Source: Deltaproteobacteria bacterium
Lineage (GTDB): Bacteria > Bdellovibrionota > FAC87 > UBA2466
Length of the DNA: 64,000 nucleotides
Direction of reading: 5' to 3'
NCBI GenBank assembly: GCA_016196825.1
Contig: JACPWY010000024.1
Span: forward strand, 1-64,000
Part shown: piece by piece, positions 1,446 through 60,618 of the stretch
Numbering within the stretch: the first letter of the stretch is position 1
Layout: each line of letters begins with the position of its first letter
The notes under the pieces: model-generated
What the model saw: the letters and a program-made list of their open reading frames with translations, nothing else
Database searches by the model: none
Told to the model about the DNA's origin: nothing
Made by a program: the position numbers and the translations under genes

Positions 1446-1647
1446 TCCCTCAGCTCGGTTGGGTTTGCTCAATCGGCGAGGGGATTTTGGCTGTCCGCGA
1501 GGACGCACAAGAGAGGCCCCGGAGGCGTGTTTACCAGAACCGGAACATGCCACCGGGCATGTTCCGGCATCTCCGAGCCGAGCGCGGAGGACGAAGTGGA
1601 CGGCCAAAAGCACCCGCCCAGGGAGTAAACGCAACCGAGCTGAGGGA
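1446..1647. repeat. Large hairpin element, copy 1 (family 1, long-apex subtype)
   Basis: Terminal arms 1446-1461 and 1632-1647 are perfect 16-bp inverted repeats (TCCCTCAGCTCGGTTG on the left). The similarity extends one mismatch further outwards. Inside are a second stem (TTTTGGCTGTCC against GGACGGCCAAAA), two same-strand GAGGACG motifs at 1499-1505 and 1587-1593, and a central hairpin CCGGAACATGCC/GGCATGTTCCGG. The inner 97 bases match the copy at 58039-58240, reversed, with about six differences. The stop codon of the methyltransferase gene (1648-1650) abuts the right end. Open frames within it are by-products of the repeat and show no protein-like features. Confidence 0.9.
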
Positions 1648-2529
1648 TTAATGGGACAGACGCTTCTGAAGGAGCAACAATCGATAGGTCTTGTACTGTG
1701 AAAAGCTCTCTGCCGTGAGTGTGCCCTGAAAATACTTGCTGTCGAGCTTGGCAAATCGGATTCTGAACTTCCAGGCTAGGAATTTGTACAGGCTCGGATG
1801 GCGTGACTCGATAAAGCGGCAGATGATGTCCTTCACCGGCCGAGCGGTAGTGTCAAGGAGCTGGCCAAACATCCCCATGGTTGGCGCGGTCTCAGTGGTG
1901 ATGTCTTGATCGCTGACAAGGGTCATTGGAAGCCTCTCAAGCAGCCCACGAAACTCACCGATGAAATGCCCGCCTCCGAGTGGCCCCTCAGGGCCAGCGG
2001 TCTTCTTGAAGAAGTCGGAAATGAGAATGTGGCCGCCGGGGTTGAGGACGCTGATGGCCTTTTTGAGAGCGAGCTCCATATTCACGTACTGAAAACTCTC
2101 ACTAAACAAGACAAGATCATATTTCCGATCGGGCTCACAACTCTCAATGGTGGAGGGGTAAAGGGTGACCTTCTCTCCGAGTCTCTCCTGAATTTTGGCG
2201 GAGAGGTAAAGGCTTGGTGAGACGCAATCGACGTTGTAGCCGCGGGCGATCAGGCGCTCGGCCTGTTTGCCGCTCCCAGCGCCGACATCCAAAATAGTTT
2301 TCACGCCCGGTGGGATGCGGTTGAGAAGAAAAAGCGAGTAACGTTCTTGGGCCTCGGCGAAATTGCGAAGTGTCGGTGCAAGACTGTCGGTCCATAGGCC
2401 GTAGTGCAGGTCTTCAAACCCAAAGAGCTCAGCGCCTAATATTTGGCCTATCGCAAGGCCAACATCCTTTGAATCGACGACTTCCATGTTTCTAAAATCT
2501 ACTGCAAGGAGGCAGGTCTCGCCAAGCAT
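1648..2529 (-). CDS. SAM-dependent class I methyltransferase
   Basis: A 293-residue protein with the Rossmann-type methyltransferase core. Motif I is TILDVGAGSGKQAERLI at about residues 78-94. The post-motif acidic position is VDCVSPS, motif II-like is YDLVLFSESFQYVNMELAL, and the motif III region is LNPGGHILISDFF. The layout fits small-molecule methyltransferases such as the UbiE/ubiquinone group, but the substrate is unknown. The ATG at 2529 gives an extra 14 residues compared with an internal ATG at 2487; neither has a convincing ribosome site, so the start is uncertain. The gene ends exactly at a hairpin element, and its last codons lie beside the repeat arm. Confidence 0.85.
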   Translation of the reverse strand: MLGETCLLAVDFRNMEVVDSKDVGLAIGQILGAELFGFEDLHYGLWTDSLAPTLRNFAEAQERYSLFLLNRIPPGVKTILDVGAGSGKQAERLIARGYNVDCVSPSLYLSAKIQERLGEKVTLYPSTIESCEPDRKYDLVLFSESFQYVNMELALKKAISVLNPGGHILISDFFKKTAGPEGPLGGGHFIGEFRGLLERLPMTLVSDQDITTETAPTMGMFGQLLDTTARPVKDIICRFIESRHPSLYKFLAWKFRIRFAKLDSKYFQGTLTAESFSQYKTYRLLLLQKRLSH

Positions 2530-2566
2530 TTGTGCCCCGCGTGAGGCCTGTGTTAGAAGTTGGGAG

Positions 2567-3076
2567 ATGAAAAATGTGCTTTTCCTCGCATTAGTCTCAC
2601 TTTCCTCATGGGCCGCGGTCTACTCAACGGGGCCCATTCGCCTCCAGTATGACGATTCCCACTGGCGCATCGGCGCTGCGCACAATGACAAGGGCAACGC
2701 CCAGAGCGAGGTACTCGTAGGGCTTGAAGAGAAGGAGAGCTTTGAGCGTTACCACTCCCGCTTCACGGTCGTCGCCGAAGATGTGTCAAAATTCCACACT
2801 GAGACTCCGGCTGGCTTGAAGAAGTACTATCGAAGCGTCGGCGAATTCTTGACCAACCAACGGTTTCAAATCACCAATCGCAAAGACACTCAGTTGGGAG
2901 GGCGCGCGGCCTATGAGATCACGGCAAACCAGCGCGATTTTGGATTGGGCTACCGCCAATGGGTGGTGGTCGAGGGCAACAAGGCCTATCTCATGACCGC
3001 CTCAACTCGACTCTCCAAATTCGATGAAAAGGCTCCCGCACTGACGGCGATGGCCGAAAGTTTTAACCTGAAGTAG
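2567..3076 (+). CDS. Exported PsbP/DcrB-like protein
   Basis: The 169-residue product starts with a Sec signal peptide (MKNVLFLALVSLSSWAAVYS); this start is preferred over one 27 codons upstream, which would run into the methyltransferase gene. The mature part has the pattern of PsbP-like/DUF1795 proteins: a short strand ending in DDSHWRI, a central QLGGRAAYEITANQ, then VVVEGNKAYLMTAST, and a final helix-strand ending MAESFNLK. Such proteins are periplasmic or lipid-anchored and of mostly unknown function. It lies in a divergent pair with the methyltransferase, 37 bases apart. Confidence 0.7.
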   Translation: MKNVLFLALVSLSSWAAVYSTGPIRLQYDDSHWRIGAAHNDKGNAQSEVLVGLEEKESFERYHSRFTVVAEDVSKFHTETPAGLKKYYRSVGEFLTNQRFQITNRKDTQLGGRAAYEITANQRDFGLGYRQWVVVEGNKAYLMTASTRLSKFDEKAPALTAMAESFNLK

Positions 3077-3215
3077 CGGTTCAGCCAGCCGCTCAAGATT
3101 TAGACTCTCCCACGACTGTATTCCTTTGGTGACCACGCACGCGGCGAGCGGCCGCGTCTTTGCATTACTTGTGTTCAACGCGAGTCGGTCACACCCAAAA
3201 TTCGAGGAAGACCAT

Positions 3216-4487
3216 ATGAAGATCATTTTCTGCGCCGTGATGATGGCCGTTTTGCCTGCATTCGAAGCTTTGGCGGAGGGCCATGACACCACATCCGTCT
3301 CTCTTTCCGGCCGGGAGCTTGGAGACACGGTCATCCGGATCACAAATGGCGGGCAAGGACCGAAAAACGCGAGTGAACGCCAGTTGTTCGTCGAAATGGG
3401 AGAGCGCACTGAGAGCCACAAGCTCCTCGTGGACCTCCTCACAAAATATGGAATGACCCCGGAGCAGGTCATCCAGCGTTTGAATCTCGGGCATGACTCA
3501 AGCATCAAAGACCCGAGCTGGGACGAAGTGGCGTGGGTCGCCGTGGGAATCGGTGGTGGTGCGAACTACATCCGGGAACTCACTGCTCTTCAGAAGGCGA
3601 ACCCCGATGACCCCTTTCTGAAGAAATTGATGTGGGCTCGTCGGTGGGAGTCTTTCACTGCCGAGCAAGTGCGCTCGTATCACAGTGCAGAATGGCCTCA
3701 GTATCAGGAATTCGCGAAGGCCCGGGCGAAGTGGCTCAGTCGTTCTGTAAAGGACGAAACACTACTCAGTCAAATTGTGGTCAGTGATGGGCACGGAAAC
3801 CTAGTCGTGAAACCGGGCTCTAAAGATCGGGCAACAAGTTTTGTGAGAAACGATCTGCGGCCGTCCGATTGGTACCGGGGGGAATCGACCGGGTGGAAAC
3901 AGAGAGCTCTTTTTCTTCATAACCAAATTGTGGCAAAAGGCGAAATCTCTGAGGTGGACGCGAAGAGTCTCATCGATCCTCGCTGTCTATTTCCCAGTGG
4001 GATGGACTCCTCGAACTTGGACGAGGTTCTCCGGTTCAATGTCGAATGTGAAGCCGAACACGAGGTGGTGAGACTCGTGAATCTCCATCGAGCGCGCAAT
4101 GGCAAACAGCCTGTCAGTTATAATCGAGAGGTGTCCTACATAGCGCGGGAACTCGCGAATAAACACGGCTACGTCGTGCACAATCGATTCCCAATGCAAT
4201 ATATGAAAGACTACGACACACTCTTTCCCGGTAAACGAAAATATCTCTTTAGAGCTGAGAATGCGTATATGAAATTTGACCAAGGTTGGACTGCCAAGGA
4301 GATCGCCTTTAATTTGCAAGAGTCTCAGGCGGCAGGGAGCGACAAATGGCCGCGGGGCTGGAGCTTTCACCCTGGCCACGCCGGTAACGTTCTGACGGAT
4401 TGCAAAGAGGTCGCCGTTGGGGTGGCCATTGATCCCGTGACGAAAGAAACGGTGGGGTACGAAATCTTTATCGATCCGATGCCCTAG
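3216..4487 (+). CDS. Exported protein with C-terminal CAP (SCP) domain
   Basis: The start at ATG 3216 is supported by GAGGAAG seven bases upstream and by the signal peptide MKIIFCAVMMAVLPAFEALA, giving 423 residues. The first two thirds (about residues 25-275) are not recognised. The last 150 residues form a CAP/SCP/PR-1-type domain: an N-terminal helix VVRLVNLHRARNGKQPV, a His in KHGYVVHNRF, the Glu in FRAENAYM, and the closing SFHPGHAGNVL with VAVGVAID. These match the His-Glu-Glu-His cavity residues of the family. The role is unknown; CAP proteins are extracellular. It overlaps the convergent glycosyltransferase gene by 4 bases. Confidence 0.8.
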   Translation: MKIIFCAVMMAVLPAFEALAEGHDTTSVSLSGRELGDTVIRITNGGQGPKNASERQLFVEMGERTESHKLLVDLLTKYGMTPEQVIQRLNLGHDSSIKDPSWDEVAWVAVGIGGGANYIRELTALQKANPDDPFLKKLMWARRWESFTAEQVRSYHSAEWPQYQEFAKARAKWLSRSVKDETLLSQIVVSDGHGNLVVKPGSKDRATSFVRNDLRPSDWYRGESTGWKQRALFLHNQIVAKGEISEVDAKSLIDPRCLFPSGMDSSNLDEVLRFNVECEAEHEVVRLVNLHRARNGKQPVSYNREVSYIARELANKHGYVVHNRFPMQYMKDYDTLFPGKRKYLFRAENAYMKFDQGWTAKEIAFNLQESQAAGSDKWPRGWSFHPGHAGNVLTDCKEVAVGVAIDPVTKETVGYEIFIDPMP

Positions 4488-5665
4488 GCGGTCTGGTAGG
4501 CGGCGAGTGTGGCGGCGATGTGGCGAGAGCGAGTGTAGGTGTTTTTCATCAGGTCAGCGCCTGCCGAGCCGAACGTGTGGCGCTTCGCAGGATCGCTCAA
4601 GAGTTCGTGAATTTTCTGAGCTATGTCATTCTCATCACCGCGAGCGGCAAGAAGCCCTGTCTTTCCCGAAAGAATTGTTTCATTGAGGCCCGGCACATCA
4701 AAGCCGACCACCGGTATGCCAAGAGCGCTTGCCTCGGCTGCGGCCAGACCGAACGATTCGGGGCCCAAGTTGGGTTGAAGAAAAAGCGCGCTGCTCCTGA
4801 TGACAGAGTGCAGTTTCGTGCGCGGGAGAGCGCCCCGAAACGCGACTCTGCCCGCGAGCGCCAGTGTTTGGGTGAGTCCTTCGAGTTTGGCGCGTTCGGG
4901 CCCTTCGCCAGCGATCCAAAGGGTCCAGGGGTCGGATTCAATTTTCTTGAGAGCGCGCAGTACGCGATCGATCCCCTTCATGGGGACGAGGCGGCTGGCG
5001 ATGGTCATGAGATTGGCGGGCGAATGGGCGAGTGTCGTTGCCGTGATCAAGGGCACCGGATTGGGGACGAGGTTCACGTTCTTCCAACCCTCGGCCTTCA
5101 AGAGGTCGCAGATGTAACGACTGGGCCCAAGAACAGAAGCGATCCTCTGGTGGCTTTTTTTACGAGCGAGATATTCATGTACGGCGTGCGCGCGCCGGAT
5201 ATCGTCTTTCAGATAGTTGAGGCAGCCGAAGCGCTTGTTGTAGGCGAGGCACATCCACCCGCTACGTTTTTCACAGACCTTGTCTCCCAAGATCACTCGA
5301 CAACTCGAAGGGCTCGTAGTGGCAACTGTGTGTGATGTCAAAACAACGTGGTACCGGGCTAAGATTGGCTCGAGAATCTTCGGGTCGAGCTGATCCATAA
5401 GATGAATGATGTCTGGCGAGAATGTTTGGGCTAATCGCAGCAGGCGGTCGTTGGTTTCGCGCACAAGCGTTCGTGACGAAAAGGAGTTGATGGCAAAGAG
5501 GCTATCCAGGAAATCGCCGGGGAACGCGGGGAGGGGACCCGAGCCGCGGCCCGCGACAAAATGCACTGTATGCCCGGCCTCCGTGAGCCCTTCACCGGTC
5601 TCCTTCACCACCTGCTCCGTGCCGTAGCTTTCACCGATGGTCGGCGTCAAAATGAGAATTCGCAC
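4484..5665 (-). CDS. Glycosyltransferase, GT4-type (GT-B fold)
   Basis: A 393-residue, two-domain glycosyltransferase. The N-terminal domain has LTPTIGESYGTEQVVKETG, the usual glycine-rich acceptor loop; GTEQVV is typical of GT4 enzymes. The C-terminal domain has ASRLVPMKGIDRVLRAL, LWIAGEGPERAKLEGL, VAFRGALPRTKL and the donor-binding FGLAAAEASALGIPVVG with an EAxAxGxP motif. A Cys-containing insertion (KVCEKRSGWMCLAYNKRFGC) is seen around residues 130-155. It starts with GTG at 5665, 41 bases from the divergent ribD start. A TACAAT box at 5673-5678 on this strand would give a nearly leaderless mRNA. It probably acts on envelope or capsule sugars. Confidence 0.87.
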   Translation of the reverse strand: MRILILTPTIGESYGTEQVVKETGEGLTEAGHTVHFVAGRGSGPLPAFPGDFLDSLFAINSFSSRTLVRETNDRLLRLAQTFSPDIIHLMDQLDPKILEPILARYHVVLTSHTVATTSPSSCRVILGDKVCEKRSGWMCLAYNKRFGCLNYLKDDIRRAHAVHEYLARKKSHQRIASVLGPSRYICDLLKAEGWKNVNLVPNPVPLITATTLAHSPANLMTIASRLVPMKGIDRVLRALKKIESDPWTLWIAGEGPERAKLEGLTQTLALAGRVAFRGALPRTKLHSVIRSSALFLQPNLGPESFGLAAAEASALGIPVVGFDVPGLNETILSGKTGLLAARGDENDIAQKIHELLSDPAKRHTFGSAGADLMKNTYTRSRHIAATLAAYQTA

Positions 5666-5706
5666 CCTTGCTATTGTAACAAATGGGGGTGTGGTAAGAG
5701 TCGCTT

Positions 5707-6765
5707 GTGGACGCCAAGTACCTGAAATTAGCTCTAGAAGAGGCCCTTAAGCGAAAAGGCTTCACCGCGCCAAACCCGGCCGTTGGGGCTGTGGTCGTGC
5801 GCAATGGCGAGTTTGTGGCCGCGGGCACCCATTGGGAGCGGGGTAAGCCCCATGCTGAAGTCGATGCCCTTTTGAAAGCTGGCGCGCGGGCCCAGGGGGC
5901 GACGCTCTATGTGACGCTCGAACCCTGCAACCACCAGGGCCTGACTCCTCCGTGCACTGAGCGCGTGCTTGAGTCGGGAATTCAGCGGGTTGTGTATGCC
6001 TTTTCCGATCCGAACCCCCATGTGAAAGGGGGCGGTACTCTGCGGCTGCGGGAAAATGGTGTTGTGGTGGAACGCCTGGCCCTTCCGGAGATCGACGCCT
6101 TTTACCAGAGCTATGCCAGGTGGGTGACGACGGGTCGTCCGACGGTGCACCTCAAACTGGCCATGACTCTTGATGGCAAGATCGCAGGGCCCGACGGGCG
6201 ACGCGAGAAAATCTCCGGGCCGGCCTTCGATGAGTTTTCCCACCTCAACCGACGACGATCGGATGCCATTCTCACGACCGCCCAAACCATTTTGAACGAC
6301 AATCCTCGCTTTGACGTGCGAGCGCCCGTTGAGCCGTGCCGAAAACGAGTGTATGTGCTCGACTCCGAGCTGCGTCTTTTGCCCAGGCCCGATCTCAACG
6401 TTTTTTCGCACGCCAAGGAGCTTGTGATCTTCCACCGTGGGCCCGAGGAGAGGTCGCGGGACCGGGCGCGCCTTGTCGCGGTGCCTCGCTGTGACGATGC
6501 CATGGATCTTGTCACAACTCTCAAGACCATAGGCCAAGAAGGGGTGCATGATCTTTGGGTGGAGTGTGGGGCGCGGCTCACGCAGCGCTTATGGTCTTTG
6601 GATCTCGTCGATGAAATGATCATTGCGGTCGCGCCTAAGTTTTTGGGGCCAGACGCTTTGGCCGCCCCGGGCGACCTGTCTTTCACGGGGCGAGAGGTCC
6701 AATGGCGTATTTTGGGTGACGATGCTATCTGTACCGTGAGGAGACATGTTCACAGGAATTGTTGA
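5707..6765 (+). CDS. ribD: Bifunctional riboflavin deaminase/reductase RibD
   Basis: A 352-residue protein, the usual length for RibD, catalysing the second and third steps of the riboflavin pathway from the GTP side. The N-terminal deaminase has the zinc site: HAEVDALL, then TLYVTLEPCNHQGLTPPCTERV with the two Cys ligands. The C-terminal reductase begins at about residue 145 (TVHLKLAMTLDGKIA), with SDAILTTAQTILNDNPRFDVR and a C-terminal VECGARL segment. The start is GTG at 5707. It heads the ribD-ribE-ribBA-ribH operon and overlaps ribE by 20 bases. No FMN riboswitch was seen in the short leader. Confidence 0.95.
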   Translation: MDAKYLKLALEEALKRKGFTAPNPAVGAVVVRNGEFVAAGTHWERGKPHAEVDALLKAGARAQGATLYVTLEPCNHQGLTPPCTERVLESGIQRVVYAFSDPNPHVKGGGTLRLRENGVVVERLALPEIDAFYQSYARWVTTGRPTVHLKLAMTLDGKIAGPDGRREKISGPAFDEFSHLNRRRSDAILTTAQTILNDNPRFDVRAPVEPCRKRVYVLDSELRLLPRPDLNVFSHAKELVIFHRGPEERSRDRARLVAVPRCDDAMDLVTTLKTIGQEGVHDLWVECGARLTQRLWSLDLVDEMIIAVAPKFLGPDALAAPGDLSFTGREVQWRILGDDAICTVRRHVHRNC

Positions 6766-7342
6766 TCACTTGGCCAGGCTCGAAGAGGTGAAGCCTCAAG
6801 GAACGGGTCTATTGCTTCGCCTTAAGACTCGCTTTTCTCAATTCACCCCAGGCGAAAGCCTCGCTATCGACGGGACCTGTCTCACCGTCGTGGATTTTGG
6901 GTCGGATTGGTTTGATGTGCAGCTGTCTGTTGAGACCCTTGATACGACCATTGCGCGCAGTTATCAGGTCGGCGGCCTGTGCAATCTCGAGCGTGCGTTG
7001 CGGGTGGGCGACGCGCTCGGTGGTCACTTTGTTTCTGGCCATGTTGATGGCACGGCCAACGTGACGCGGGTCGGGGTGGACGGGGACTATCGCGAAATTG
7101 CCTTTGAGGCTCCCTGTGACCTCATGATGGAAAAGGGATCGGTGACCCTGAACGGTGTTAGTCTCACTGTGAATACAGTCGATAGGGTCGCGCAGCAATT
7201 CACCGTGATGCTCATTCCTCACACGCTCGAACGAACTAATCTCAAGATGCTCAAGGCCGGTGATCGGGTGAATGTTGAATTTGATCTCTTTTATAAAATG
7301 GTGCGGGACCAATTGAGCCACTGGAAGGGAACCGTATGTTAG
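6746..7342 (+). CDS. ribE: Riboflavin synthase alpha subunit RibE
   Basis: A 198-residue protein made of two tandem lumazine-binding barrels. The first begins [14 protein letters not shown], the second near residue 98 with [13 protein letters not shown]. Landmarks are [38 protein letters not shown] in the first barrel and [20 protein letters not shown] in the second. The enzyme turns two molecules of dimethyl-ribityllumazine into riboflavin. It starts inside the end of ribD and overlaps ribBA by 7 bases, so translation is probably coupled. Some databases name this gene ribC. Confidence 0.95.
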
Positions 7343-8541
7343 ACACAATCAAGGATGTTTTAGAGGATATCAAGAACGGCAAGATGGTGATCCTTGTCGA
7401 TGATGAGGATCGCGAGAATGAGGGTGATCTTGTCATCGCCGCGGAGAAGGTGACCAAGGAATCGATCAACTTCATGGCTACCCAAGGGCGTGGTCTGATT
7501 TGTCTTGCGATGTCGGGCGATGACATCGATCGCTTGGGACTCCCAATGATGGTGAAGAATAACGCCTCCCCTTATCAGACGGCGTTCACAGTTTCGATTG
7601 AGGCGGCCTCAGGCGTGACGACGGGCATCTCAGCGGCCGACCGAGCCCACACCGTGGCCGTGGCGGTTGATCCCAATTCCGGGCCGCGCGAACTCGTGAG
7701 CCCGGGCCACGTTTTCCCGCTGAGGGCCAAAGAGGGCGGAGTCCTTGTGCGCGCGGGGCAGACGGAGGGCAGCGTGGATCTGGCGCGCCTGGCGGGGCTC
7801 AAACCCAGTGGCGTCATCTGTGAAATCATGAATGACGATGGAACGATGGCGCGGATGCCGCAGCTTCTGGGTTTTGCAAAGAAGCATGGCCTGCGCATCG
7901 CCTCTATCAACGAGCTCATCAAGTATCGTATGGAGCATGAGTGCTTGGTGAAAGAGGTCGCCAACGCTCGCCTGCCCATCGAGGCGCTTGGCGAATTTCG
8001 CATTCGCGTTTTTGAGAGCACGATCGATGGAAGCCAGCACGTGGTATTGAGCCACGGCGAGATCGATCCCGCGAAACCCACCTTGGTGCGCGCCCACTCG
8101 GAATGTCTCACAGGTGACACTCTCGGGTCGTCGCGTTGTGATTGTGGCTGGCAACTTTCAGTCTCATTGGAAAAGATCGCCAAAGAGGGAGGCGTTCTCC
8201 TCTATATGCGACAGGAGGGGCGGGGAATCGGGCTCGCCAACAAAATCAAGGCCTATGCGCTTCAGGACACCGGGCTCGACACCGTTGAGGCCAACCATCG
8301 GTTGGGTTTCAGGGAGGATCAGCGCGATTACGGAATCGGCTCCCAGATTTTGCGTTTCATTGGACTTAAGCAAATTCGCCTTCTCACGAATAACCCTCGC
8401 AAGATTTACGGCATCAGCGGATTTGGTCTAGAAATCGTCGAGCGCGTCCACATCGAGATGAAGCCCACGGTGGAAAACGAAGGCTACCTCAAGACGAAAA
8501 GGGACAAATTAGGCCATCTTCTCCGCTTTCCACTCCAATGA
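7336..8541 (+). CDS. ribBA: Bifunctional DHBP synthase/GTP cyclohydrolase II RibBA
   Basis: A 401-residue fusion. The first half is 3,4-dihydroxy-2-butanone-4-phosphate synthase: acidic loop [17 protein letters not shown], then [11 protein letters not shown], and [20 protein letters not shown]. The second half is GTP cyclohydrolase II with the zinc site [20 protein letters not shown] (three Cys), [19 protein letters not shown], and TNNPRKI. All key residues of both domains appear intact, so both activities are expected. The two activities start both branches of riboflavin synthesis. The ATG overlaps the ribE end, and ribH follows after 104 bases. Confidence 0.95.
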
Positions 8542-8570: not shown

Positions 8571-8645
8571 CTGCGCGGCAAAAACGTTGTGGTTTGGGGG
8601 AATATTGGGTTTAATGAGACTCTAGATTTTCTTTAAGGAGAACAC

Positions 8646-12864: not shown

Positions 12865-12973
12865 ACCGAGACGTTTTTTTTGCGACTCCCAATGAAATTC
12901 CCAACCCGATCTTGCGGTTCTGTCGAACCCCATTGATCTCCATCACACGAATCCCGATCAGCGAAGCGACGTT

Positions 12974-13149
12974 GAGGCGGGGATGTGGATGGGTCGGATT
13001 GGTTGTGGGGGTGGCGCGGGACGGAGCGGGTGGCAGCGGAGGGGTTTTGGTGGCCCCAATGGGACAGCCAAAACCCCACAGCTGACAGGACCCGCCCGCC
13101 CCGCGCCACCCCCACAACCAATCCCCCAACCCTGTCCCAGCCCCGCCTC
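12974..13149. repeat. Large GC-rich hairpin element (family 2, full copy)
   Basis: The two halves of 12974-13149 are imperfect inverted repeats. The longest perfect stretch is 25 bp, 12996-13020 against 13100-13124, and the apex has GGGGTTTTGG (13041-13050) pairing with CCAAAACCCC (13068-13077). A 46-base piece, 13050-13095, is repeated at 35945-35990 with six mismatches. The GGACAGCCAAAA next to the apex also occurs, reversed, in the family 1 copy at 1485-1496. The 100 bases between the YdcF-like gene and the element contain nothing I recognise. The element lies 70 bases upstream of the porin gene. Confidence 0.85.
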
Positions 13150-13220
13150 GCGTCACGGCACTGAGATACATGTGATGTATAGTAATCATGTTGTTCGACA
13201 AAACTACCAAGGGAGGGGTC

Positions 13221-18690: not shown

Positions 18691-18875
18691 TAGTGCTCCT
18701 CCCGCATAAAGACGGGCGGGCCTGCCAGGGGATTTTGCCCTATGGCGAGGACGCAAGAAGTGGCGGCCCGGAGGCGGCCCCTCTGCGGGCCGTCGAGGAC
18801 CGACGCGACTGAGGACGAAGTCCAGAGGGCAAAAGCACCGGCAAGACCACTCGGATTTATGCGGGAGGAGCACTA
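18691..18875. repeat. Large hairpin element, copy 2 (family 1, short-apex subtype)
   Basis: Outer arms TAGTGCTCCTCCCGCATAAA (18691-18710) and its exact complement (18856-18875) form a 20-bp perfect stem. Inside, GATTTTGCCC pairs with GGGCAAAAGC-type sequence. The two same-strand GAGGACG motifs are at 18747-18753 and 18811-18817, and a GC-rich apex lies between. A further GAGGAC occurs at 18795. The last three bases are the stop codon (TAG on the minus strand) of the flavoprotein gene. The element separates that gene from argS. Confidence 0.88.
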
Positions 18876-20411
18876 CGCGGCTTTTTGGGTGAGATTTTCG
18901 ACGCAGGACATCCCGACGAAGGGGATGGGGCGGCGGTCGTAGCCCATGAGGCTTGAGAGGGGCGTGAACTGGTTGGCGCCCGTGCAGATCTCGATGTCGC
19001 GGCCCGTGAAGAGGGCGGGGTGTTCGTACCCTGCTGCGTGGGCAAGCGAAATCAGCTCTTTGCGGAAACTCTTCACGTAGCGGGAGAGGCGCTCCGCCTT
19101 TTGCTCGACGTTTAAGCCCGACTGAAGCCAGCGGTTTTGGGTCGCGATGCCGGCCGGACAGTGATCGGTATGGCACTTTTGCGCCTGAATGCAGCCGATG
19201 GAGAGCATCGCTTCGCGGGCGATGTGGATGAGGTCGCACCCCAGAGCAAAGGCAATCGCGGCGCGATCGGGGAAGCCGAGTTTGCCTGATCCGATCCAGA
19301 CGATCTGATTGTCTATCTCTTGGCGCATGAAGATGGGGTAAACGCGAGAAAAGCCGATCTTAAAGGGCAGGCTGACATGATCGGCAAAGGTTAAGGGTGC
19401 CGCGCCCGTGCCGCCCTCTGAGCCATCGATCGTGATAAAGTCGGGACCTTCGTTGCGCTCCTTCATGCGGCGGGCAAGAAGGTCCCAGAAAATGAGCTCA
19501 CCTACGGCGCTCTTGATGCCGACGGGAAGGCCGGTGCGCGCGGCGATTATCTCGACAAAATCGATGAGGCTGTCGACATCTTGGAATTCCCGGTGAGAGT
19601 TGGGGGAGATGCAGTCCTTTCCAGCTGCCACCCCGCGCACGTCGGCAATTTCTTGGGTAACCTTTTTCGCGGGGAGGATGCCGCCTTTGCCGGGCTTGGC
19701 GCCCTGGGAAAGCTTGATCTCGATGGCGCGAATCTGCGTGTGTTTTTCGACGCGAGCTGCGAGAACTTCCAGCGAGAAGTTCCCGCTCTTGTCGCAGGCG
19801 CCGAAGTAGCCCGTTCCGATTTGAAAGATCATGTCTGCGCCGAGCGCGTGGTAGCGGCTAAAGCCGCCTTCGCCCGTGTTTTGATAACAGTTTGCGAGCT
19901 GTGCGCCTCTGTTGAGCGAAGAGACGGCGCGTTCGCCAAGTGATCCAAATGACATCGCCGAAATGTTAATCACCGACGATGGATGAAACGGCCGGCGCCG
20001 GCCGGGGCCCATGACCTTGAGGCACGGCACCGCTGAGGGATCGCCGCCGATGTAAATGGCTTTTGAATCCGGAAACGGGAAGGTCGAATGCTTAATGATC
20101 GGGTAGCCCGTTGAGTAGAGCTGCTCGCTCGTGCCAAATCCTGAGTGGTTGTTCTGGCCCTTTGCGGAGGCATAGACCCACGCACGTTCGGAGCGACTGA
20201 AGGGCAGCTCCTCTTTGTCGTTGGCTACCCAGTATTGCCTGAGCTCTGGCCCAATCATCTCAAGCCAGTAGCGCAGATGGCCCACGATGGGAAAATTGTG
20301 CTGAATGGTGTGGTGGCTCTGGAAGAAAACATCGCGGATGGCCACGCCGAGAAGGAAGAGGCCAGCGCCTGCGATGAGGTACAGACCCCAGTTGTCCGCG
20401 AGAGAGGGCAT
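18873..20411 (-). CDS. FMN-binding glutamate-synthase-family protein (GltB central-domain type)
   Basis: A 512-residue protein with an N-terminal membrane helix (WGLYLIAGAGLFLLGVAI), then the FMN- and iron-sulfur-binding barrel of glutamate synthase. Marks are NISAMSFGSLGERAVSSLNRGA, NTGEGGFSRYHALGADMIFQIGTGYFG, IEIKLSQGAKPGKGGILPA, DFITIDGSEGGTGAAPL, and AREAMLSIGCIQAQKCHTDHCPAGIATQ with the cluster Cys residues. It lacks the amidotransferase domain of true glutamate synthase, so its reaction is unknown; stand-alone versions are common and often membrane-tethered. Its stop codon is the last three bases of a hairpin element. The two-component system lies upstream on the same strand. Confidence 0.9.
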   Translation of the reverse strand: MPSLADNWGLYLIAGAGLFLLGVAIRDVFFQSHHTIQHNFPIVGHLRYWLEMIGPELRQYWVANDKEELPFSRSERAWVYASAKGQNNHSGFGTSEQLYSTGYPIIKHSTFPFPDSKAIYIGGDPSAVPCLKVMGPGRRRPFHPSSVINISAMSFGSLGERAVSSLNRGAQLANCYQNTGEGGFSRYHALGADMIFQIGTGYFGACDKSGNFSLEVLAARVEKHTQIRAIEIKLSQGAKPGKGGILPAKKVTQEIADVRGVAAGKDCISPNSHREFQDVDSLIDFVEIIAARTGLPVGIKSAVGELIFWDLLARRMKERNEGPDFITIDGSEGGTGAAPLTFADHVSLPFKIGFSRVYPIFMRQEIDNQIVWIGSGKLGFPDRAAIAFALGCDLIHIAREAMLSIGCIQAQKCHTDHCPAGIATQNRWLQSGLNVEQKAERLSRYVKSFRKELISLAHAAGYEHPALFTGRDIEICTGANQFTPLSSLMGYDRRPIPFVGMSCVENLTQKAA

Positions 20412-52412: not shown

Positions 52413-52438
52413 GACAGCCTCCTACTTCTTTCGAAGTA

Positions 52439-53672: not shown

Positions 53673-54026
53673 ATGATCTCAAAGCCTGCGCGCCTTCAAG
53701 TTTTCAAACGGGTCCAACTCCGTGGAAAGGTGTTTATCCATAATGACGACGAGCTTTACCAGGCCAGCATTGGCAACATCTCTGCTGGCGGCCTGTTCCT
53801 AAATGACGTGACCGAACTGAAACTCGGATCAGTGGTTCGCGTGGTGATTAAGGCACAGGGTCTGGACATGCCGATTCAGGCGGTTGGACGAGTGGTCCGC
53901 ATCGAGGCGGATGACATCCGAACAGGCCTTGCCGTCGAGTTCACCAGCATTTCCCGTCAATCTCGCGAAGACATCCAGAACTGCGTCCATGAAGCGAGAA
54001 TGCGGGATGCTCTCAAAACGGCCTAA
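53673..54026 (+). CDS. PilZ-domain protein
   Basis: A 117-residue single-domain protein. It has the basic N-terminal element KRVQLRGKV and the second element ASIGNISAGGLFL, where the usual D/NxSxxG appears as NISAGG. The ending VEFTSISRQSREDIQ is typical. The Arg pair (RxxxR) of classic c-di-GMP binding is weak here, so binding is possible but not certain. GAGGT lies 6 bases before ATG 53673. It precedes the large TPR gene by 24 bases. Confidence 0.85.
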   Translation: MISKPARLQVFKRVQLRGKVFIHNDDELYQASIGNISAGGLFLNDVTELKLGSVVRVVIKAQGLDMPIQAVGRVVRIEADDIRTGLAVEFTSISRQSREDIQNCVHEARMRDALKTA

Positions 54027-54050
54027 AGTGGATTGCTTCGGGGGAAACCT

Positions 54051-57000
54051 ATGAAGATATCATTCTTTTGGATTCTGATTTTCGCGGTGCCGATAGGACT
54101 TCACGGCGAGAGCATGCGCAATCGCGTGAAGATCAAGAAGAGCTCCGAGCTCATTCAAGAGGATAATGGATCAGACGAGTACACTCTAGAAAAGTTGACC
54201 GTCCTCGCCAAAAAGCGAAAATCCCTGATCCAGGACATTAAGCGATTCCTGCGCGAAGCCAAATCCGAGGATCAAAAGCGTGAACTCAATCTGCGCTTGG
54301 GGACTCTCTTTATGGAGGACTATCACGCCCTTCTGGCACAGGCCCAGGTGAAGATGGATGACAAAAACCCGGAGATCCGGGGATCGGCTAAGGCCGATCA
54401 AAGCGAAGCGCACTCTTCGCTGGATAAGGCCCTCACCATTTACCAGACGATGCTTAACCGCTATCCCAAGCACCCCAGAAGCGATGAGATGCTCTACGCG
54501 CTCGCGATAGCGACCCAAGACAAAGGACGCATGGCTCAGTCGATGCATTATTTTCAGCGCATTTCGGTTGAGGCTCCGCGTTCCAAATACATCGATGACG
54601 CCCGCGTACAGCTCGGCGACTACTACTTCGATCGCAATAACTACAACAAAGCCATGGAGTATTTTGATCAGATTGTCCACGCGAAGAATCGTCGCCTATT
54701 GCCGTACGCGATCTACAAGAAGGCCTGGTGTCTGTATAACCAGCAAAAATATGAGCAGTCGATCAAGCACTTCAAGTGGGTCGCCAAGAGCGACACCAAG
54801 GAAAGCAACGTGCGCGTGCGCGCCGAGGCCATTCGCGACATCGCCCTCCCCTTCGTGGAGCTGAAGACTGTCGATGATGCCGTGAACTTTTACCGCGAGC
54901 AGGGTGACCAGTTTTACCGCCAGGGGCTTGAGTCCTTGTCCGGCCACTTCCAAGAAAAGGGCCGCTACGCAGAGTCCATCTCACTGTACTCAAAGCTCCT
55001 TGAGATCGACGCCAATTACAAGAGCAACCCAACCTACGAGATAGCTATAGTCGACGCTCTTCGTCTCTCGAACCATCATAAGGAAGCGATCTATCGCCTG
55101 TTTTCTCGGTTTCCGCTCTACGGCAACAGCTCCAACTGGTATGAGCTCAACTCCCAAGACCCCGCTACGATCAATGAACTGATGAGTCGGTTCGAGGCCA
55201 CCGCACGCAAGTACGCCATGGAGTACCACGCAGAAGGTCAGCGTACGAAGAATGAATCACTCTACAACGCGGCCAAGACTCTCTATGCGAAATACCTCGA
55301 AAGCTTCCCCCTTTCCTCGCAGGCAGCCCAGATTCGCTTTTATCTCGCCGAGATTCTCTTTAAGCAGAACCAGTTCACCGAAGCGGCCGACCACTACTAT
55401 CTCATCTATAAGGATAAGGCGGCCGGCGCTCTGCGGCTCGATGGTCTTAAGTATTCGTTGGCCGCTCTGGATCGCGTCGTCAACGACGACCGCAAAAAAC
55501 AGGGCCTAGCCGCGATCGATACCAGCACGACGGCTAGGCTCAAGGACAACGACACCTCTAGTGAGCCCGTGCCCTTCAGCCAAATCGAAAGTAAATTCCT
55601 GTCGGTGGCCGATGAGTACCTGGCCCAGTACCCCAATCAAAAGGATGCGCCGGACGTGATGTATGAGGTGGCCTACCTGCGCTATACCCACCGAGAGCTT
55701 TCAGCCGCGCAAAAGGGGTTCTGGAGCCTCATCCAACGGTACCCGAAGCACACGGTCGCCGTCAGCTCCGCCTATCTTGTCCTCGACATCATGAACCGCA
55801 AGGCCGATTACTCGCAACTCATACAGACCTGCAAAAACTTTCTCGGCCACAAGGAGATGACCAAGTCGAGCTTCCGCATCGAGGTCGCCTCGGTCTTGCG
55901 CCAAGCCGAGCTCAAACGTGTCTCGCTCTTCGAAGAAAAGGGGCAGCACAAATCGGCCGCTGACGGCTACATCGAGTACACAAAGGCCTATGGCGCCCAA
56001 GATGACCTTCTCTTTGAAAAGGCCCTGTACAATGCCTCCGTAAACTACACGAAGGCTGAAGCCTACCTAGCTGCCGTCGACACCCAAGAGCGCTTTCTGC
56101 GTCGCTTCCCGAAGAGTGGACTTCGCCAAAACATGCTCCTCAGCGTCGCTCGGACCCATGAGATGATGGCCAATTTCGACAAGAGTGCTCTCTTTTATGA
56201 AGAGTTTGCCAATGAGTACGCAGGAAACGCGCAGGCCCGCAATGCCCTGCGCCTCGCTGGGATCTACTATTGGGGCTCTAACCACCATCGCCAGGCCGAA
56301 AATGTTCTTCTGGATTACCGAAAGCGCTTCCCTGCCGACAGCAAGATCATTGCTAAAGACATTCTGGATCTGTACGAATCGCAGGGACTTGTTCCGAAGG
56401 AGATTCAGTTCTTCCTCGAAGAGCGCGCCCGCCGCGGGATTTCGGCAAGCGAATACATGAGTCTTTCTTACAAAATTTTTGACCTTCAGATGAAGGCCAA
56501 AGGGAAGGTGTCACCCGAGCTCACAAAGGAGATCGCCCGCACCGCCCAACACTATAGGAAGGACCTGCTCCAGACCCCTAAGGGGGCTGAGGCCTACGCC
56601 CGCTTTGTTTTCTCTCAAACCAATATTGTCGACGCCCAGTTTTCGCGTATGCACCTGTCCGGCAAAAACATGGAGAAGGTGCTCAAAACGAAGCTGGCGC
56701 TTCTTAAAAATCTCGAGAACGAATATACGGGGATTGCCAAGCTCGGAAGCCCCGAGTGGGGGCTCGCCTCGATGTATCGCACCGCCTTGGCCTATCAACA
56801 GATGGCGCTTGAGATCTCTCAGGCCCCGGTGCCGGGGGAGCTCTCGAGTGAGCAGATCGACATTTATAGAAAAGAGCTGAACCAGGAGATGATTCTTCCT
56901 TTTACGGAAAAGGCCCGAACTCTAACCAAAACCTGTCTAGAAAAGGCCACCGAATTGAATCTCCTATCTTCCTGGGTGCCGCGCTGTTATAGCCTCGCCG

Positions 57001-58025
57001 CTGAGCTTGCGCCGGACAGTTATCGGAGCGTGCGATCGTTTTACCTGCCGCCTCTGCAGGTTGCGCTATCGATACCTCCCTCAGGGAGCCGAGTGGCTGC
57101 TGGAGATTTCAAACGCTTTTCTTATCCGTTCTATTCTTCTTTCTTGTTTCAGCCTTCGGCAATTGAAAGAAGCGTGACCGCTCTCCCCGATCTCGGCTAC
57201 TCAGGACTTGAGACCCGGTCCGAGGCGCGCATCAATATTCCCAGCGTGATGGACTACCGATCGCTCAACGAAGAACGGAAGAAACTTCTCACCAAACTCG
57301 CCGAGTCGAACCGCCCTCTCGATAACACCGATCTTCCGACATTTGCCTATCTGAATCTTGTCCGCGCCACCAACCCCGGCAAGGCGGTGCCACTGATTCA
57401 AAGGGCGATTCAAAGCGACCCGAAGAACACGGCTCTGCACAATCTTTTGGGAGTTGCGTATCTCGACGAGGGCCATCTCTCTTCGGCCAAGGTGGTTTTT
57501 CTTTCGCTGCTCGCACGAGGAGAAAAAAACGCCGCGATCGCCACCAACCTTGGTGTTATCGCCTACCTGGAGAACCATGAGGGGTTGGCGAAGGAGTATT
57601 GGCTGGAGGCCACTTCAATGGACGGCAGCCGCGAGGCTTCGCTCAACCTGGGCTCAGTCGCACTTAAGTATCACAATGGTTTTGAGGCCAAGAGCCATAT
57701 GGAACGGGCCCTTTCGCAGGGCGATCAGGATGCGGCGGCGAATGTGGGTGCCGCCGTTGCTCTTCTTCAAAATGGCTCATTAGAGGATGCGCGTGAGAGG
57801 CTCACGGACCTCTCAAAGAAATTCAAGAGCGATCCCTATGCGCGTCTTTCGATCGGCTATTTCCTGATGGACATTGATAAAAAGCCCGATGTGGCTGAGA
57901 TGGTTCTGTCAGAGTACATGGAGAGCCACGACAACGTAACTGAGATCCGTCAGGCTCTCAGTGAAACCAAGCGATCACTGGGTTCATCCACCAGCGGTGC
58001 CGGTCTTCCCACGATCGGACAGTGA
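54051..58025 (+). CDS. Very large exported TPR-repeat protein
   Basis: A 1324-residue protein. The start is ATG 54051, which gives a signal peptide (MKISFFWILIFAVPIGLHGE); a TTG 18 bases upstream is not preferred. The rest is helical and built of many tetratricopeptide-type units, such as YDKAMEYFDQIVHAK-like, YEQSIKHFKWVAKS, SAAQKGFWSLIQRYPKHTVA and SLEDARERLTDLSKKF, with the strongest set in the last 250 residues. The protein is probably periplasmic or outer-membrane associated and serves as a scaffold. A hairpin element begins 14 bases after its stop. Confidence 0.85.
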   Translation: MKISFFWILIFAVPIGLHGESMRNRVKIKKSSELIQEDNGSDEYTLEKLTVLAKKRKSLIQDIKRFLREAKSEDQKRELNLRLGTLFMEDYHALLAQAQVKMDDKNPEIRGSAKADQSEAHSSLDKALTIYQTMLNRYPKHPRSDEMLYALAIATQDKGRMAQSMHYFQRISVEAPRSKYIDDARVQLGDYYFDRNNYNKAMEYFDQIVHAKNRRLLPYAIYKKAWCLYNQQKYEQSIKHFKWVAKSDTKESNVRVRAEAIRDIALPFVELKTVDDAVNFYREQGDQFYRQGLESLSGHFQEKGRYAESISLYSKLLEIDANYKSNPTYEIAIVDALRLSNHHKEAIYRLFSRFPLYGNSSNWYELNSQDPATINELMSRFEATARKYAMEYHAEGQRTKNESLYNAAKTLYAKYLESFPLSSQAAQIRFYLAEILFKQNQFTEAADHYYLIYKDKAAGALRLDGLKYSLAALDRVVNDDRKKQGLAAIDTSTTARLKDNDTSSEPVPFSQIESKFLSVADEYLAQYPNQKDAPDVMYEVAYLRYTHRELSAAQKGFWSLIQRYPKHTVAVSSAYLVLDIMNRKADYSQLIQTCKNFLGHKEMTKSSFRIEVASVLRQAELKRVSLFEEKGQHKSAADGYIEYTKAYGAQDDLLFEKALYNASVNYTKAEAYLAAVDTQERFLRRFPKSGLRQNMLLSVARTHEMMANFDKSALFYEEFANEYAGNAQARNALRLAGIYYWGSNHHRQAENVLLDYRKRFPADSKIIAKDILDLYESQGLVPKEIQFFLEERARRGISASEYMSLSYKIFDLQMKAKGKVSPELTKEIARTAQHYRKDLLQTPKGAEAYARFVFSQTNIVDAQFSRMHLSGKNMEKVLKTKLALLKNLENEYTGIAKLGSPEWGLASMYRTALAYQQMALEISQAPVPGELSSEQIDIYRKELNQEMILPFTEKARTLTKTCLEKATELNLLSSWVPRCYSLAAELAPDSYRSVRSFYLPPLQVALSIPPSGSRVAAGDFKRFSYPFYSSFLFQPSAIERSVTALPDLGYSGLETRSEARINIPSVMDYRSLNEERKKLLTKLAESNRPLDNTDLPTFAYLNLVRATNPGKAVPLIQRAIQSDPKNTALHNLLGVAYLDEGHLSSAKVVFLSLLARGEKNAAIATNLGVIAYLENHEGLAKEYWLEATSMDGSREASLNLGSVALKYHNGFEAKSHMERALSQGDQDAAANVGAAVALLQNGSLEDARERLTDLSKKFKSDPYARLSIGYFLMDIDKKPDVAEMVLSEYMESHDNVTEIRQALSETKRSLGSSTSGAGLPTIGQ

Positions 58026-58038
58026 TCACATCGCGTTA

Positions 58039-58240
58039 GAGCCTACCCTAAAACCCCTTCTACTCGGAACGGTCAAAATGTCCTGCCCCTTCGTCCTCCG
58101 CGGTCGGTTCGGAGATGCCGGAACATGCCCGATGGCATGTTCCGGTTCTGGTAAACACGCCTGCGGGACCTCCCTTGTGCGTCCTCGGTCCAGGACATTT
58201 TGCCTCGTTCCTCCCGACGAAAGGGTTTTAGGGTAGGCTC
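58039..58240. repeat. Large hairpin element, copy 3 (family 1, long-apex subtype)
   Basis: Outer arms 58039-58056 and 58223-58240 are an exact 18-bp inverted repeat (GAGCCTACCCTAAAACCC). The core has CTTCGTCCTC and CTTGTGCGTCCTCG in the same orientation, with CGTCCTC at 58092-58098 and 58180-58186. The apex GCCGGAACATGCC/GGCATGTTCCGG is the same as in the copy at 1446-1647, in reverse orientation. The right arm contains the TAA stop (58228-58230) of the cupredoxin gene. Confidence 0.9.
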
Positions 58241-58800
58241 TTAATCCAGATGGGCGCCGTCGAATTGGTCTGATTGCTCATCCCATCATGTTCATAGCAA
58301 GGAGAGGTTGTTGCGGAATTCGGATCGTAGGCCCGCAAGACCTTGAACGAAACGCTCGCACCCGGTTGCAGGGGCGCATTCACCGGCCAATGATCGAAGG
58401 GGCAGCTGCCTCCACCGTGCATAATGTGCGTGACGCTGTCGTTGTTCTTAAAGGTGACCGTGTCGCCCACCTTGAACACGGCCGGCGCGGCCTTGGTGTT
58501 CCAGGGTTTCGTCTGCGAGGTCGCAGCAGCAATCATGAAGCTGGGAGGATTCGATCCAGTTCCGGTTCCTGATCCGGTACCCGCTCCGGTACCCGAGCCA
58601 GTTTCGCTACCGGTGCCACTGTTCCCCGCATTTTCGCTAGAACCTGAACCACCCGAATTGGCAGTGCCGCTCGGTGGGACCACTTCTGCGGGGCCAACCG
58701 TGGAATTCTGTGAGGTGTCTGAGGGTAGGCAGATGCTGCCCATCTTAAAACTGCCGCAGGCTGCGACAAAAAGGGCAAGGGTGATAGAAACTCTTTTCAT
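58228..58800 (-). CDS. Cupredoxin-like (type 1 copper) lipoprotein
   Basis: Starting at ATG 58800, the 190-residue protein has a lipoprotein signal (MKRVSITLALFVAACGS, lipobox VAAC), a linker rich in Gly, Ser and Thr (residues about 35-80), and a C-terminal cupredoxin domain. The copper ligands are visible: a His in SVTHIMHGGG and a Cys-His-Met set in CYEHDGM, at spacing C-x2-H-x2-M. Function is presumably electron transfer or copper handling at the cell surface or periplasm. Its last codons (SLP and the stop) are encoded by the arm of a hairpin element, so the C-terminus may be younger than the domain. Confidence 0.82.
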   Translation of the reverse strand: MKRVSITLALFVAACGSFKMGSICLPSDTSQNSTVGPAEVVPPSGTANSGGSGSSENAGNSGTGSETGSGTGAGTGSGTGTGSNPPSFMIAAATSQTKPWNTKAAPAVFKVGDTVTFKNNDSVTHIMHGGGSCPFDHWPVNAPLQPGASVSFKVLRAYDPNSATTSPCYEHDGMSNQTNSTAPIWIKSLP

Positions 58801-59055
58801 GGCGGCTCCAATTATTCTTCTTCCAAAGTGATGACAGAGCAACCTCCATGCCAAACGATCACTCTCCCCTCCCCTCCAACCTAACCCCCAAACTTTTCAG
58901 CCCTTTATCAGGGGTGGCGCCACACACTGTCGAAGGGATCGATAGCCATCAACTTGATCAACAGCTGATCACAATCCTCACGATTTCCAAGGAACTCTGC
59001 TAACCATTCAGTTTTCTTTGTAAAGCCAATCTGTCCACAGAGTGTGCACGGCCTT

Positions 59056-59739
59056 TTACGCCGAATGCGGGAAGCTTCGTTTTTCTGACAGTGCCCGCCA
59101 GAAATCCCGGAGGTACAGAAAGCCCGACACGAGCGAGATGACAAGCGCAATATAAAGGATCACCGTGCCCACTCGCCAGGCAGGCAGTCCAAAAGCGCTC
59201 CCGTACCACATGAGAAACCCAAGCCCCAACATCTGGAAGATGAGCTTTAACTTCCCGCTTTGCCCAGCGGCGATGATAATGTTTTCCCCGGCAGCAACAC
59301 CACGCAAAGCAGTGATGAGAAGCTCTCGAGAGAGAAGCAGAATCACGAGCCATTCATTCACCCGGTCGAGCTTCATCAGCATCACAAGCCCCACCATCAG
59401 AAGGAGCTTATCGGCAACAGGATCGAGGAATTTCCCGAGCAGCGTCTCGACCTTCCACTTGCGTGCGATGTAGCCATCAAGAAGATCGGTGATGCCGGCG
59501 ATGAAAACGATGAATGAGGCCACCCGTCCCGCCGAGAAGCGGAACATCCAATCCTTCTCGAAGGGTGGTTGATCCCCGTCGTAGGCAAGACAAATCGCCA
59601 TGAGCGGAACCAAAAAGATCCGAAAGATCGTGAGAAGGTTGGGCAAATTCAGGAGATTTCGAGGATCATCGAGGCGGGCCCAGACCATTCCCCGAAGTCT
59701 TTCGAAAAAGGGGGGCAATTTCAAGTTGAAAGTCAGCAA
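59056..59739 (-). CDS. pgsA: CDP-diacylglycerol--glycerol-3-phosphate 3-phosphatidyltransferase
   Basis: A 227-residue CDP-alcohol phosphotransferase that makes phosphatidylglycerol phosphate in the inner membrane. The motif D-x2-DG-x2-AR-x8-G-x3-D-x3-D is complete: DLLDGYIARKWKVETLLG continues into KFLDPVADK. Several membrane helices follow, and NLPNLLTIFRIFLVPLM opens the first helix, as is usual. It lies 25 bases after the gene at 59765 on the same strand and may be co-transcribed with it. The 200 bases on its far side contain no gene. Confidence 0.93.
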   Translation of the reverse strand: MLTFNLKLPPFFERLRGMVWARLDDPRNLLNLPNLLTIFRIFLVPLMAICLAYDGDQPPFEKDWMFRFSAGRVASFIVFIAGITDLLDGYIARKWKVETLLGKFLDPVADKLLLMVGLVMLMKLDRVNEWLVILLLSRELLITALRGVAAGENIIIAAGQSGKLKLIFQMLGLGFLMWYGSAFGLPAWRVGTVILYIALVISLVSGFLYLRDFWRALSEKRSFPHSA

Positions 59740-59764
59740 GGAGCGTTAACCCTATCCTCAAGGA

Positions 59765-60436
59765 TTAGGGCTGAGTGGAGAGGGGTTCGGGTTTGGTGGG
59801 AGCCACCGAGGCGGGAGAGGGAGCCGCATCCTCTTCGTCCGCAGCCGCGGAACCGGAGACCGAATCGGTCTTAGACTTATAGACCTCGACGTTTTGGAAC
59901 ATGAACTCCAGGTTCGGGCGCACGGCCGCGTTTGAGCCCTTCGCAATTTTGCCACAGTGTTTCACGCTGTAACAAAACTCGTGGTCGATCAGAAGGGCCT
60001 CGAGCACTGCCCTCATCCGATCATTTGAGACGCTTCTGCCGACGATATCGGGTCGACCATCGCGAAAGTAGCGCCAGTCATTCATCACGGTTGTTCGGCG
60101 CAGGTCTAATTTCGCCAGGGTGAGCTGGCGATTCACCGAGAGCCAACTCGAGGGGTTGGTCGCCTGGACTACCAGCGCCTCCGCCCTAGCCCGCAAATCG
60201 TTATAAAGCTTCTCGGACTCCAGCACCTTCTTATCAAAGGTGGCAGCCTCGGCATTTTTGAGCACAGTCTCAACAGGCGTCTTCGAAAACGCCGCAATCT
60301 CGGTGTAAACGCCTTCGAGCACAGCAATACGTGCTTTGAGCTCGGCGTCTAAAACCGCCGCCTGGGCCTTGGCAGCATCCTCGGCAGCCTTCTCGGCGTG
60401 CGCGGTTAGGGCAACAAGGATCAAGAGCCAATGCAT
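59765..60436 (-). CDS. Exported helical protein, unknown
   Basis: The start is set at ATG 60436, giving a signal-like MHWLLILVALTAHAEKAAED and 223 residues. A frame open for another 46 codons upstream is only the coding by-product of the hairpin element next to it. The mature protein has a long charged helix (AELKARIAVLEGVYTEIAAF), one Cys pair in HEFCYSVKHCGKIAKG, and an acidic, Pro-rich end. No family was recognised. No ribosome site is seen in the three bases between the element and the start codon, so the element itself must supply the leader. Confidence 0.6.
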   Translation of the reverse strand: MHWLLILVALTAHAEKAAEDAAKAQAAVLDAELKARIAVLEGVYTEIAAFSKTPVETVLKNAEAATFDKKVLESEKLYNDLRARAEALVVQATNPSSWLSVNRQLTLAKLDLRRTTVMNDWRYFRDGRPDIVGRSVSNDRMRAVLEALLIDHEFCYSVKHCGKIAKGSNAAVRPNLEFMFQNVEVYKSKTDSVSGSAAADEEDAAPSPASVAPTKPEPLSTQP

Positions 60437-60439
60437 CTT

Positions 60440-60618
60440 AGAGCGCTTTGCAAAACTAACCCCTACTCGGTCGGAAGAAATGGCCGGGTCCTTCGTCCTC
60501 CGCGCTCGCCTCCTCGACATGCCCCAGAGGGCATGCCTCCGGGGGCTCACTTGTGCGTCCTCGGACCCGGCCATTTTTTCTCTTCCTCGCTCACGGGGTT
60601 AGTTTTGCAAAGCGCTCT
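60440..60618. repeat. Large hairpin element, copy 4 (family 1, short-apex subtype)
   Basis: Outer arms 60440-60463 and 60595-60618 form an exact 24-bp inverted repeat. Inside, AAATGGCCGGGTCC pairs with GGACCCGGCCATTT. The core has CTTCGTCCTCCGCGCTCG and CTTGTGCGTCCTCGG in the same orientation (CGTCCTC at 60494-60500 and 60556-60562), and the apex is ACATGCCCCAGAGGGCATG. It separates the divergent genes at 60436 and 60683 and lies 3 bases before the former's start codon. Confidence 0.9.

Follow-up and report, generated by a model that had tools for sequence, protein, structure and literature searches.

The window analysed here is a stretch of 64,000 nucleotides from a contig (JACPWY010000024.1) of a Deltaproteobacteria bacterium, and it contains four large, dispersed hairpins. 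Our analysis indicates that these hairpins are very probably copies of a non-autonomous transposable element of ~160-205 bp, similar to miniature inverted-repeat transposable elements (MITEs), which carries an ancient, selected hairpin core and is moved in trans by various transposases. An initial annotation of the window had described the hairpins as an unrecognised element and named a structured non-coding RNA, a non-autonomous mobile element and a chromosome-architecture site as candidates. The second of these is backed by empty sites, target-site duplications, a nested insertion and near-identical dispersed copies, and the last found no positive support.

All parts of the shared hairpin plan are present in each of the four intervals for which it had been claimed (1446-1647, 18691-18875, 58039-58240 and 60440-60618). 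The outer arms are 16-24 nt long with 0-1 mismatch, and their sequence differs from copy to copy. The arms enclose a second stem bordered by A/T, followed by the facing motifs CGAGGACGCA and GAGGACGAA on the same strand and by a GC-rich apex. Over the 98 core positions, six differences separate copies 1 and 3, which reproduces the similarity of ~94% estimated earlier by eye. The longest perfect inverted repeat within a span of up to 260 nt is 25 nt in the window and at most 15 nt in 30 first-order Markov simulations, and these simulations exclude chance as the origin of the four hairpins. The exact motif pair does not occur in the window beyond the four copies. Once target duplications are recognised, copy 3 occupies exactly 58039-58240 and copy 4 occupies 60441-60617. 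The neighbouring genes we scanned agree with the earlier observation that no transposase is near.

The four copies represent far too small a set to be the whole family. Searches with a covariance model (R1) found further copies in the host genome and in related genomes, including 92 matches in the 3.54 Mb host genome at E <= 0.01 (E-values rest on a short calibration and are rough). Copy 1 is matched over 1474-1617 with 72 bits. Copy 2 is among the 92 matches, and its core, which was excluded from the training of R1, is still matched at 66 bits (E 1.7e-15). Independently of the model, the motif CGAGGACGCACAAG with at most one mismatch occurs 62 times in the host genome, compared with once for the reversed control, and 62 copies were extracted with their flanks. 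The element is about 160-205 bp long, and this length and its mostly intergenic position argue against any coding capacity. The core takes three forms in the host genome: a typical form of 71 nt, a form of 98 nt whose apex is extended, as in window copies 1 and 3, and a form of 45 nt without the apical hairpin. Matching terminal arms, i.e. terminal inverted repeats, are found in 57 of the 62 copies, mostly with 0-1 mismatch, and fall into seven subfamilies: A TCCCTCAGCTCGG, B GAGCCTATCCC, C GAGCGCGTTGC, D AAACAGGGACG, E GAACCTATCTC, F GAGTGCGTAAC and G AGTGCTCCTCC. Solo arms are also present, together with remnants internally deleted between the GAGGACG repeats. Copy 4 of the window and two copies on other contigs (L001 and L019) have an identical core within differing arms, and in another family, A-type arms surround a different core (L082). 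The core sequence and fold persist, while the terminal arms and the duplication length change. A more divergent hairpin type was also observed in the host genome (L094, G000:C8:6500-11500, and L113 1178-1295); its core is GAGGAAGA / CTGACGAAG, its arms (TATATTTCGTTACA) differ, and it resembles copies in other genera (L065 and L069).

Evidence that the element is mobile DNA comes first from an orthologous site. One copy (L076, genome G004) is absent at the same place in all five congeners compared. The filled site reads ..AGACTA/GAGCGC...GCGCTC/TAGAAAAGAT and the empty orthologous sites read ..AGACTAAAAAAGAT, so that TA is doubled at the filled site relative to the empty site. Four of the five congeners have a clean join of the AGACTA/AAAAAGAT type, and G011 has unrelated extra sequence. 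Overall, the target-site duplications are 2-4 bp long, and targets containing TA are preferred in the host genome. Of 42 host copies ending in GAGC...GCTC, 26 are flanked by an exact 3-bp duplication, nearly always TTA/TAA, where 12.7 would be expected, and palindromic flanks are rarer than expected in this set. In addition, at L023 an A-type copy has a B-type copy nested in its end. Exact 4-bp direct duplications flank 39 of 57 copies (1.7 expected) in the metagenome-assembled genome (MAG) Dive96_bin1.91.

Between the arms, the element folds into a rod composed of stem P2, a roughly symmetric internal loop, stem P3 and a terminal hairpin GGAGGCGTAC..GTACGTCGAGGA. The motifs C(A/G)AGGnCGCA and GAGnACGnAG, which lie opposite each other on the same strand, form the internal loop. 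In an alignment of 25 host copies (A2), 89.5% of cells pair and both sides have changed in 22 of 27 pairs; the covariation is 0.50, compared with 0.14 for shuffled sequences and at most 0.19 for slid partners. The corresponding values are 0.79 versus 0.20 for 27 relatives (A3), and 0.77 versus 0.19 for 52 diverse members (A4), where slid controls reach at most 0.18 and double compensatory changes are found in 26 of 27 pairs. We note that A3 and A4 were fitted to the model and hence lean towards its fold, but the gap is so large, and the slid controls so low, that model fitting is unlikely to account fully for their covariation. Across genera, families and phyla, compensatory changes have thus preserved the core fold, which is under selection. 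Non-Watson-Crick pairs on the core strand comprise 66 G.U and 33 A.C (p 0.001, which is only indicative as the sequences are related). Because G.U exceeds A.C there, the core strand seems to be the strand that folds, either as RNA or as single-stranded DNA.

These features would also suit a trans-acting structured small RNA or a selfish RNA, in which the hairpin is transcribed, the core binds a protein (for example as a guide, a decoy or a retrotransposition RNA) and DNA copies spread through RNA. Such an RNA would be consistent with covariation in every helix over six phyla, with G.U pairs twice as frequent as A.C, and with a core better conserved than the ends. However, both orientations relative to the neighbouring gene are equally frequent (19 versus 18, with the gene on either side of the core strand), which makes a cis-acting RNA of fixed orientation unlikely, and the perfect outer arms of 16-24 bp with short exact target duplications are features of DNA transposons. 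We retain from the suggestion of a structured non-coding RNA a fold under strong selection and a core strand that seems to fold, with the lack of a fixed orientation speaking against cis action, and regard an element that is primarily a trans-acting or selfish RNA as unlikely.

Alternatively, the element could be a folded single-stranded DNA recognised by a recombinase, as are integron attC sites and IS200/REP hairpins, and could move when the strand is exposed at the replication fork. Apparently only one strand folds, and the facing same-strand motifs form a pseudo-twofold internal loop that would suit a dimeric protein. The resemblance to attC lies in an imperfect inverted repeat folding as one strand; the element differs in that short target duplications are present and no array was seen (attC boxes and an integrase were not searched for). 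Transposition of single strands by HUH enzymes leaves no target duplication, whereas the duplications here are clear, and across 59 genomes the distribution of Y1 transposases is not correlated with that of the element. We consider this explanation quite improbable.

The position of the copies relative to genes also speaks for the MITE-like reading. In 32 of 57 host copies, the element starts on the stop codon (TAA or TAG) of an adjacent gene; copy 1 (a methyltransferase gene) and copy 2 (a glutamate synthase-like gene) of the window are among them. By comparison, stop codons account for only 9.6% of the TA dinucleotides in non-coding DNA (p 2e-18; genes were called with a simple codon-usage caller, which is heuristic). 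Some of these stop codons may come from the end of the element itself, and at L076 the TAG is already present in the empty sites. A copy landing on a stop codon leaves the gene intact. Insertion at stop codons would make new copies nearly harmless, which would explain the high copy numbers. Fourteen copies lie between convergent genes and seven between divergent genes. A bidirectional transcription terminator or a stabiliser of mRNA 3' ends, kept by the host, would explain the start at stop codons and the convergent cases, and the long perfect stems would stabilise RNA ends. This function would leave unexplained the copies between divergent genes and a copy number that varies wildly among relatives; a terminator does not need a conserved core of two facing motifs, and the empty sites show genes managing without the element. 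For these reasons, we find a host-kept terminator hardly credible.

The family extends well beyond the host. R1 matches were found in 14 of 59 relatives searched, with a patchy distribution over several families of the phylum. A pattern scan with one genome per species provided further candidate members among the matches listed. Members in Nitrospira, Deltaproteobacteria, Phycisphaerae and Treponema are recognised by both fold and R1, and those in Bdellovibrio, Desulfobacteraceae and Rokubacteria by fold, with R1 weak or nil. A broader model (R2) was built on 52 sequences, none of which came from the genomes of Bdellovibrio bacteriovorus kdesi, Rokubacteria or Desulfobacteraceae. Besides the host, there are 16 true carriers with 3 to at least 150 matches each, compared with none in four control genomes that had chance pattern hits only. 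R2 matches number 46 in Nitrospira moscoviensis, 17 in B. bacteriovorus kdesi and 49 in Treponema vincentii, and among MAGs, 60 in a Phycisphaerae, 50 in a Rokubacteria and at least 150 in Dive96_bin1.91; Deltaproteobacteria MAGs are also among the carriers. The family thus spans at least six bacterial phyla; carrier names are record titles and MAGs may be contaminated, and three carriers are complete genomes of named species. Several genomes from the phylum of the host are deposited as Deltaproteobacteria MAGs; L140 and L067, for instance, contain the same element with the same flanks. Pattern hits in Arthrobacter, Streptomyces, Burkholderiales and Gemmatimonadota are chance, with zero model matches in those genomes, and the pattern hit L191 was also judged to be chance.

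Dive96_bin1.91 (4.5 Mb; L114 and others) deserves separate mention, since mostly exact 4-bp duplications and near-identical arms were seen among its examined copies. This genome has undergone a recent burst and is a good place to seek an active transposase. The TD-2 RNA family has a match in T. vincentii (L192 2975-3072), ~1.2 kb away from an element copy and not overlapping it. Viral contigs hardly ever carry the element: 16 match the two patterns, with only weak R1 matches, and at most one appears to be a true copy by fold. This copy (L289 7905-7938, on a contig labelled viral) seems genuine and has GAGCG..CGCTC ends. As for a plasmid vehicle, zero plasmid matches were found at the DNA level.

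The earlier statement that no described family has this plan holds against Rfam 15 and the open literature searched. Host and distant copies gave zero matches at gathering score in Rfam 15, in both strict and permissive searches. We found no description of the element, or of its arm and core sequences as text, in openly accessible papers, a range that includes few subscription journals and preprints; the element apparently has no place in the RepRanger and stem-loop surveys. Neither of the outcomes that the initial annotation had named as refuting, an absence of further copies or a match to a known family, was observed. The closest known elements are Correia/NEMIS, ERIC, RUP, YPAL and bcr1, which are non-coding MITEs of ~100-200 bp with terminal inverted repeats, short target duplications often at TA, high copy number, a stable hairpin and mobilisation in trans (PMC2229807, PMC3733652). 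The element resembles them in size, terminal repeats, duplications, copy number and hairpin. Each of them has been described in one or a few related genera, whereas a single core fold spans the phyla here, and unlike them, the element has exchangeable ends and duplication lengths, with half of its copies on stop codons. Among the MITE features tested, the terminal repeats, target duplications and empty sites are all present, with the exception of an autonomous partner.

A different kind of repeat, the repetitive extragenic palindrome (REP) with its bacterial interspersed mosaic elements (BIMEs) and REP-associated tyrosine transposases (RAYTs), was also considered. The element is likewise palindromic, mostly extragenic and multi-copy, REPs too sometimes lie within longer palindromes, and the host genome has five Y1_Tnp matches as well as perfect hairpin families related to Y1 ends. 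However, REPs are not known to make a target duplication, whereas the duplications of the element are clear; moreover, it is 160-205 bp and not 20-40 bp long, has several stems and no tagged REP unit, and shows no association with Y1. We regard this reading as disfavoured and extremely improbable. In the group of REPs, BIMEs and TIRtrons, REPs are 20-40 bp long, have a GTAG or CGTC tag and depend on Y1; long palindromes that enclose REP dimers, and RAYT genes between long terminal repeats, have both been described (PMC3733652).

RAYT/Y1 was rejected as the mobiliser, as copies do not flank Y1 genes, Y1 presence does not follow the element among the 59 genomes, and G006, G013, G024, G050 and G058 have element copies without any Y1 match. 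A broken Y1 transposase gene with one internal TGA lies ~0.7 kb from an element copy in the host (L093, G000:C10), which is probably a coincidence. DDE_Tnp_1 transposases gave 12 matches in 14 genomes, one of which has ends like the element. This one is an IS1182 element in the related genome G001 (379 bits, cut-off 270); its duplication is CTAG, and its ends, GAGCCTGTCC, are similar to the B arms GAGCCTATCC. The family studied here thus shares features with IS5/IS1182-type insertion sequences, differing from them in that it was not seen to code. The IS1182-family element of G001 (L271 1343-3435, ends GAGCCTGTCCGAGTAAT, CTAG) has a second, opposite gene resembling a Y1 (RAYT-like) transposase.

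Several observations weigh against a MITE-like element moved in trans. The G001 IS1182 transposase is absent from the host genome and most carriers. An autonomous element with matching arms was not found in the host genome by B arms or in the stretches examined for other arms: the 66 host hits to the B arms are the element itself, deletion remnants or weak chance matches, none of which frames a gene, and far-apart pairs of other arms have no transposase between them. A plain MITE is expected to keep its ends and lose its middle, and the element does the reverse. Finally, the sequences behind the G.U excess are related, and its significance is limited to the pooled data and A3. Because autonomous partners of MITEs are often lost, the missing partner limits what can be claimed about the source of the element, not about its behaviour.

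That duplications measure 2, 3 or 4 bp points to the involvement of more than one transposase. In the mechanism we propose, a transposase supplied in trans would cut at the arms and insert the element, and the transposase families may differ between hosts, which would give rise to differing arms and duplication lengths. The core would be an asset belonging to the element itself: it would be recognised when a single strand is folded (DNA during replication or transposition, or a small RNA), and this recognition would allow the element to survive each change of ends. A bolder possibility, which we put forward only tentatively, is that the element is defined by its folded core and not by its ends: an ancient module across the six or more phyla that takes new terminal repeats fitting the available transposase and lands on stop codons. 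If so, the element would parasitise transposases and be defined by its structure. Bacterial MITEs are usually seen as worn-down insertion sequences of one lineage with meaningless middles; here the middle is conserved across phyla and the ends turn over. A genome can hold tens to more than 100 copies, and complete genomes of named organisms are among the carriers. It is now testable what recognises the core, how the element survives changes of transposase and why it concentrates at stop codons. Many bacterial genomes apparently contain this unannotated repeat class, which can be found with one covariance model.

Table 1. Positions of the four element copies in the window, with their cores and boundaries.
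Feature	Position	Strand	Details
Copy 1	1446-1647	+	long-apex form; A-type arms TCCCTCAGCTCGGTTG.../...CAACCGAGCTGAGGGA
Copy 1, folded core	1498-1595	+	98 nt; motif 1, stems P3/P4, motif 2
Copy 1, right boundary	1648-1650		TTA = TAA stop codon of methyltransferase gene 1648-2529 (minus)
Copy 2	18691-18875	+	G-type arms TAGTGCTCCTCCCGCATAAA / TTTATGCGGGAGGAGCACTA, 20 bp, perfect
Copy 2, folded core	18746-18819	+	most divergent of the four
Copy 2, right end	18873-18875		CTA = TAG stop codon of glutamate synthase-like gene 18873-20411 (minus)
Copy 3	58039-58240	-	long-apex form; B-type arms GAGCCTACCCTAAAACCC / GGGTTTTAGGGTAGGCTC
Copy 3, folded core	58090-58187	-	
Copy 3, target-site duplication	left 58036-58038, right 58241-58243		TTA, 3 bp
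Copy 4	60441-60617	-	C-type arms GAGCGCTTTGCAAAACTAACCCC / GGGGTTAGTTTTGCAAAGCGCTC, perfect
Copy 4, folded core	60492-60563	-	72 nt
Copy 4, target-site duplication	left 60438-60440, right 60618-60620		TTA, 3 bp

Two further hairpins were observed in the window. A long GC-rich hairpin at 12959-13151, outside the family, has 29-bp arms that are 97% complementary and gives spurious matches to Rfam microRNAs. At 656-703 there is a loopless, perfect 24-bp hairpin (GTGAGGTACCAAGTTACTTTTCGG / complement), which resembles the terminal repeats TAGGTACCAATCTACTTTT around a tyrosine transposase of the REP-associated type in the host genome (L092, G000:C64). This hairpin probably belongs to a separate repeat family tied to a TIRtron.

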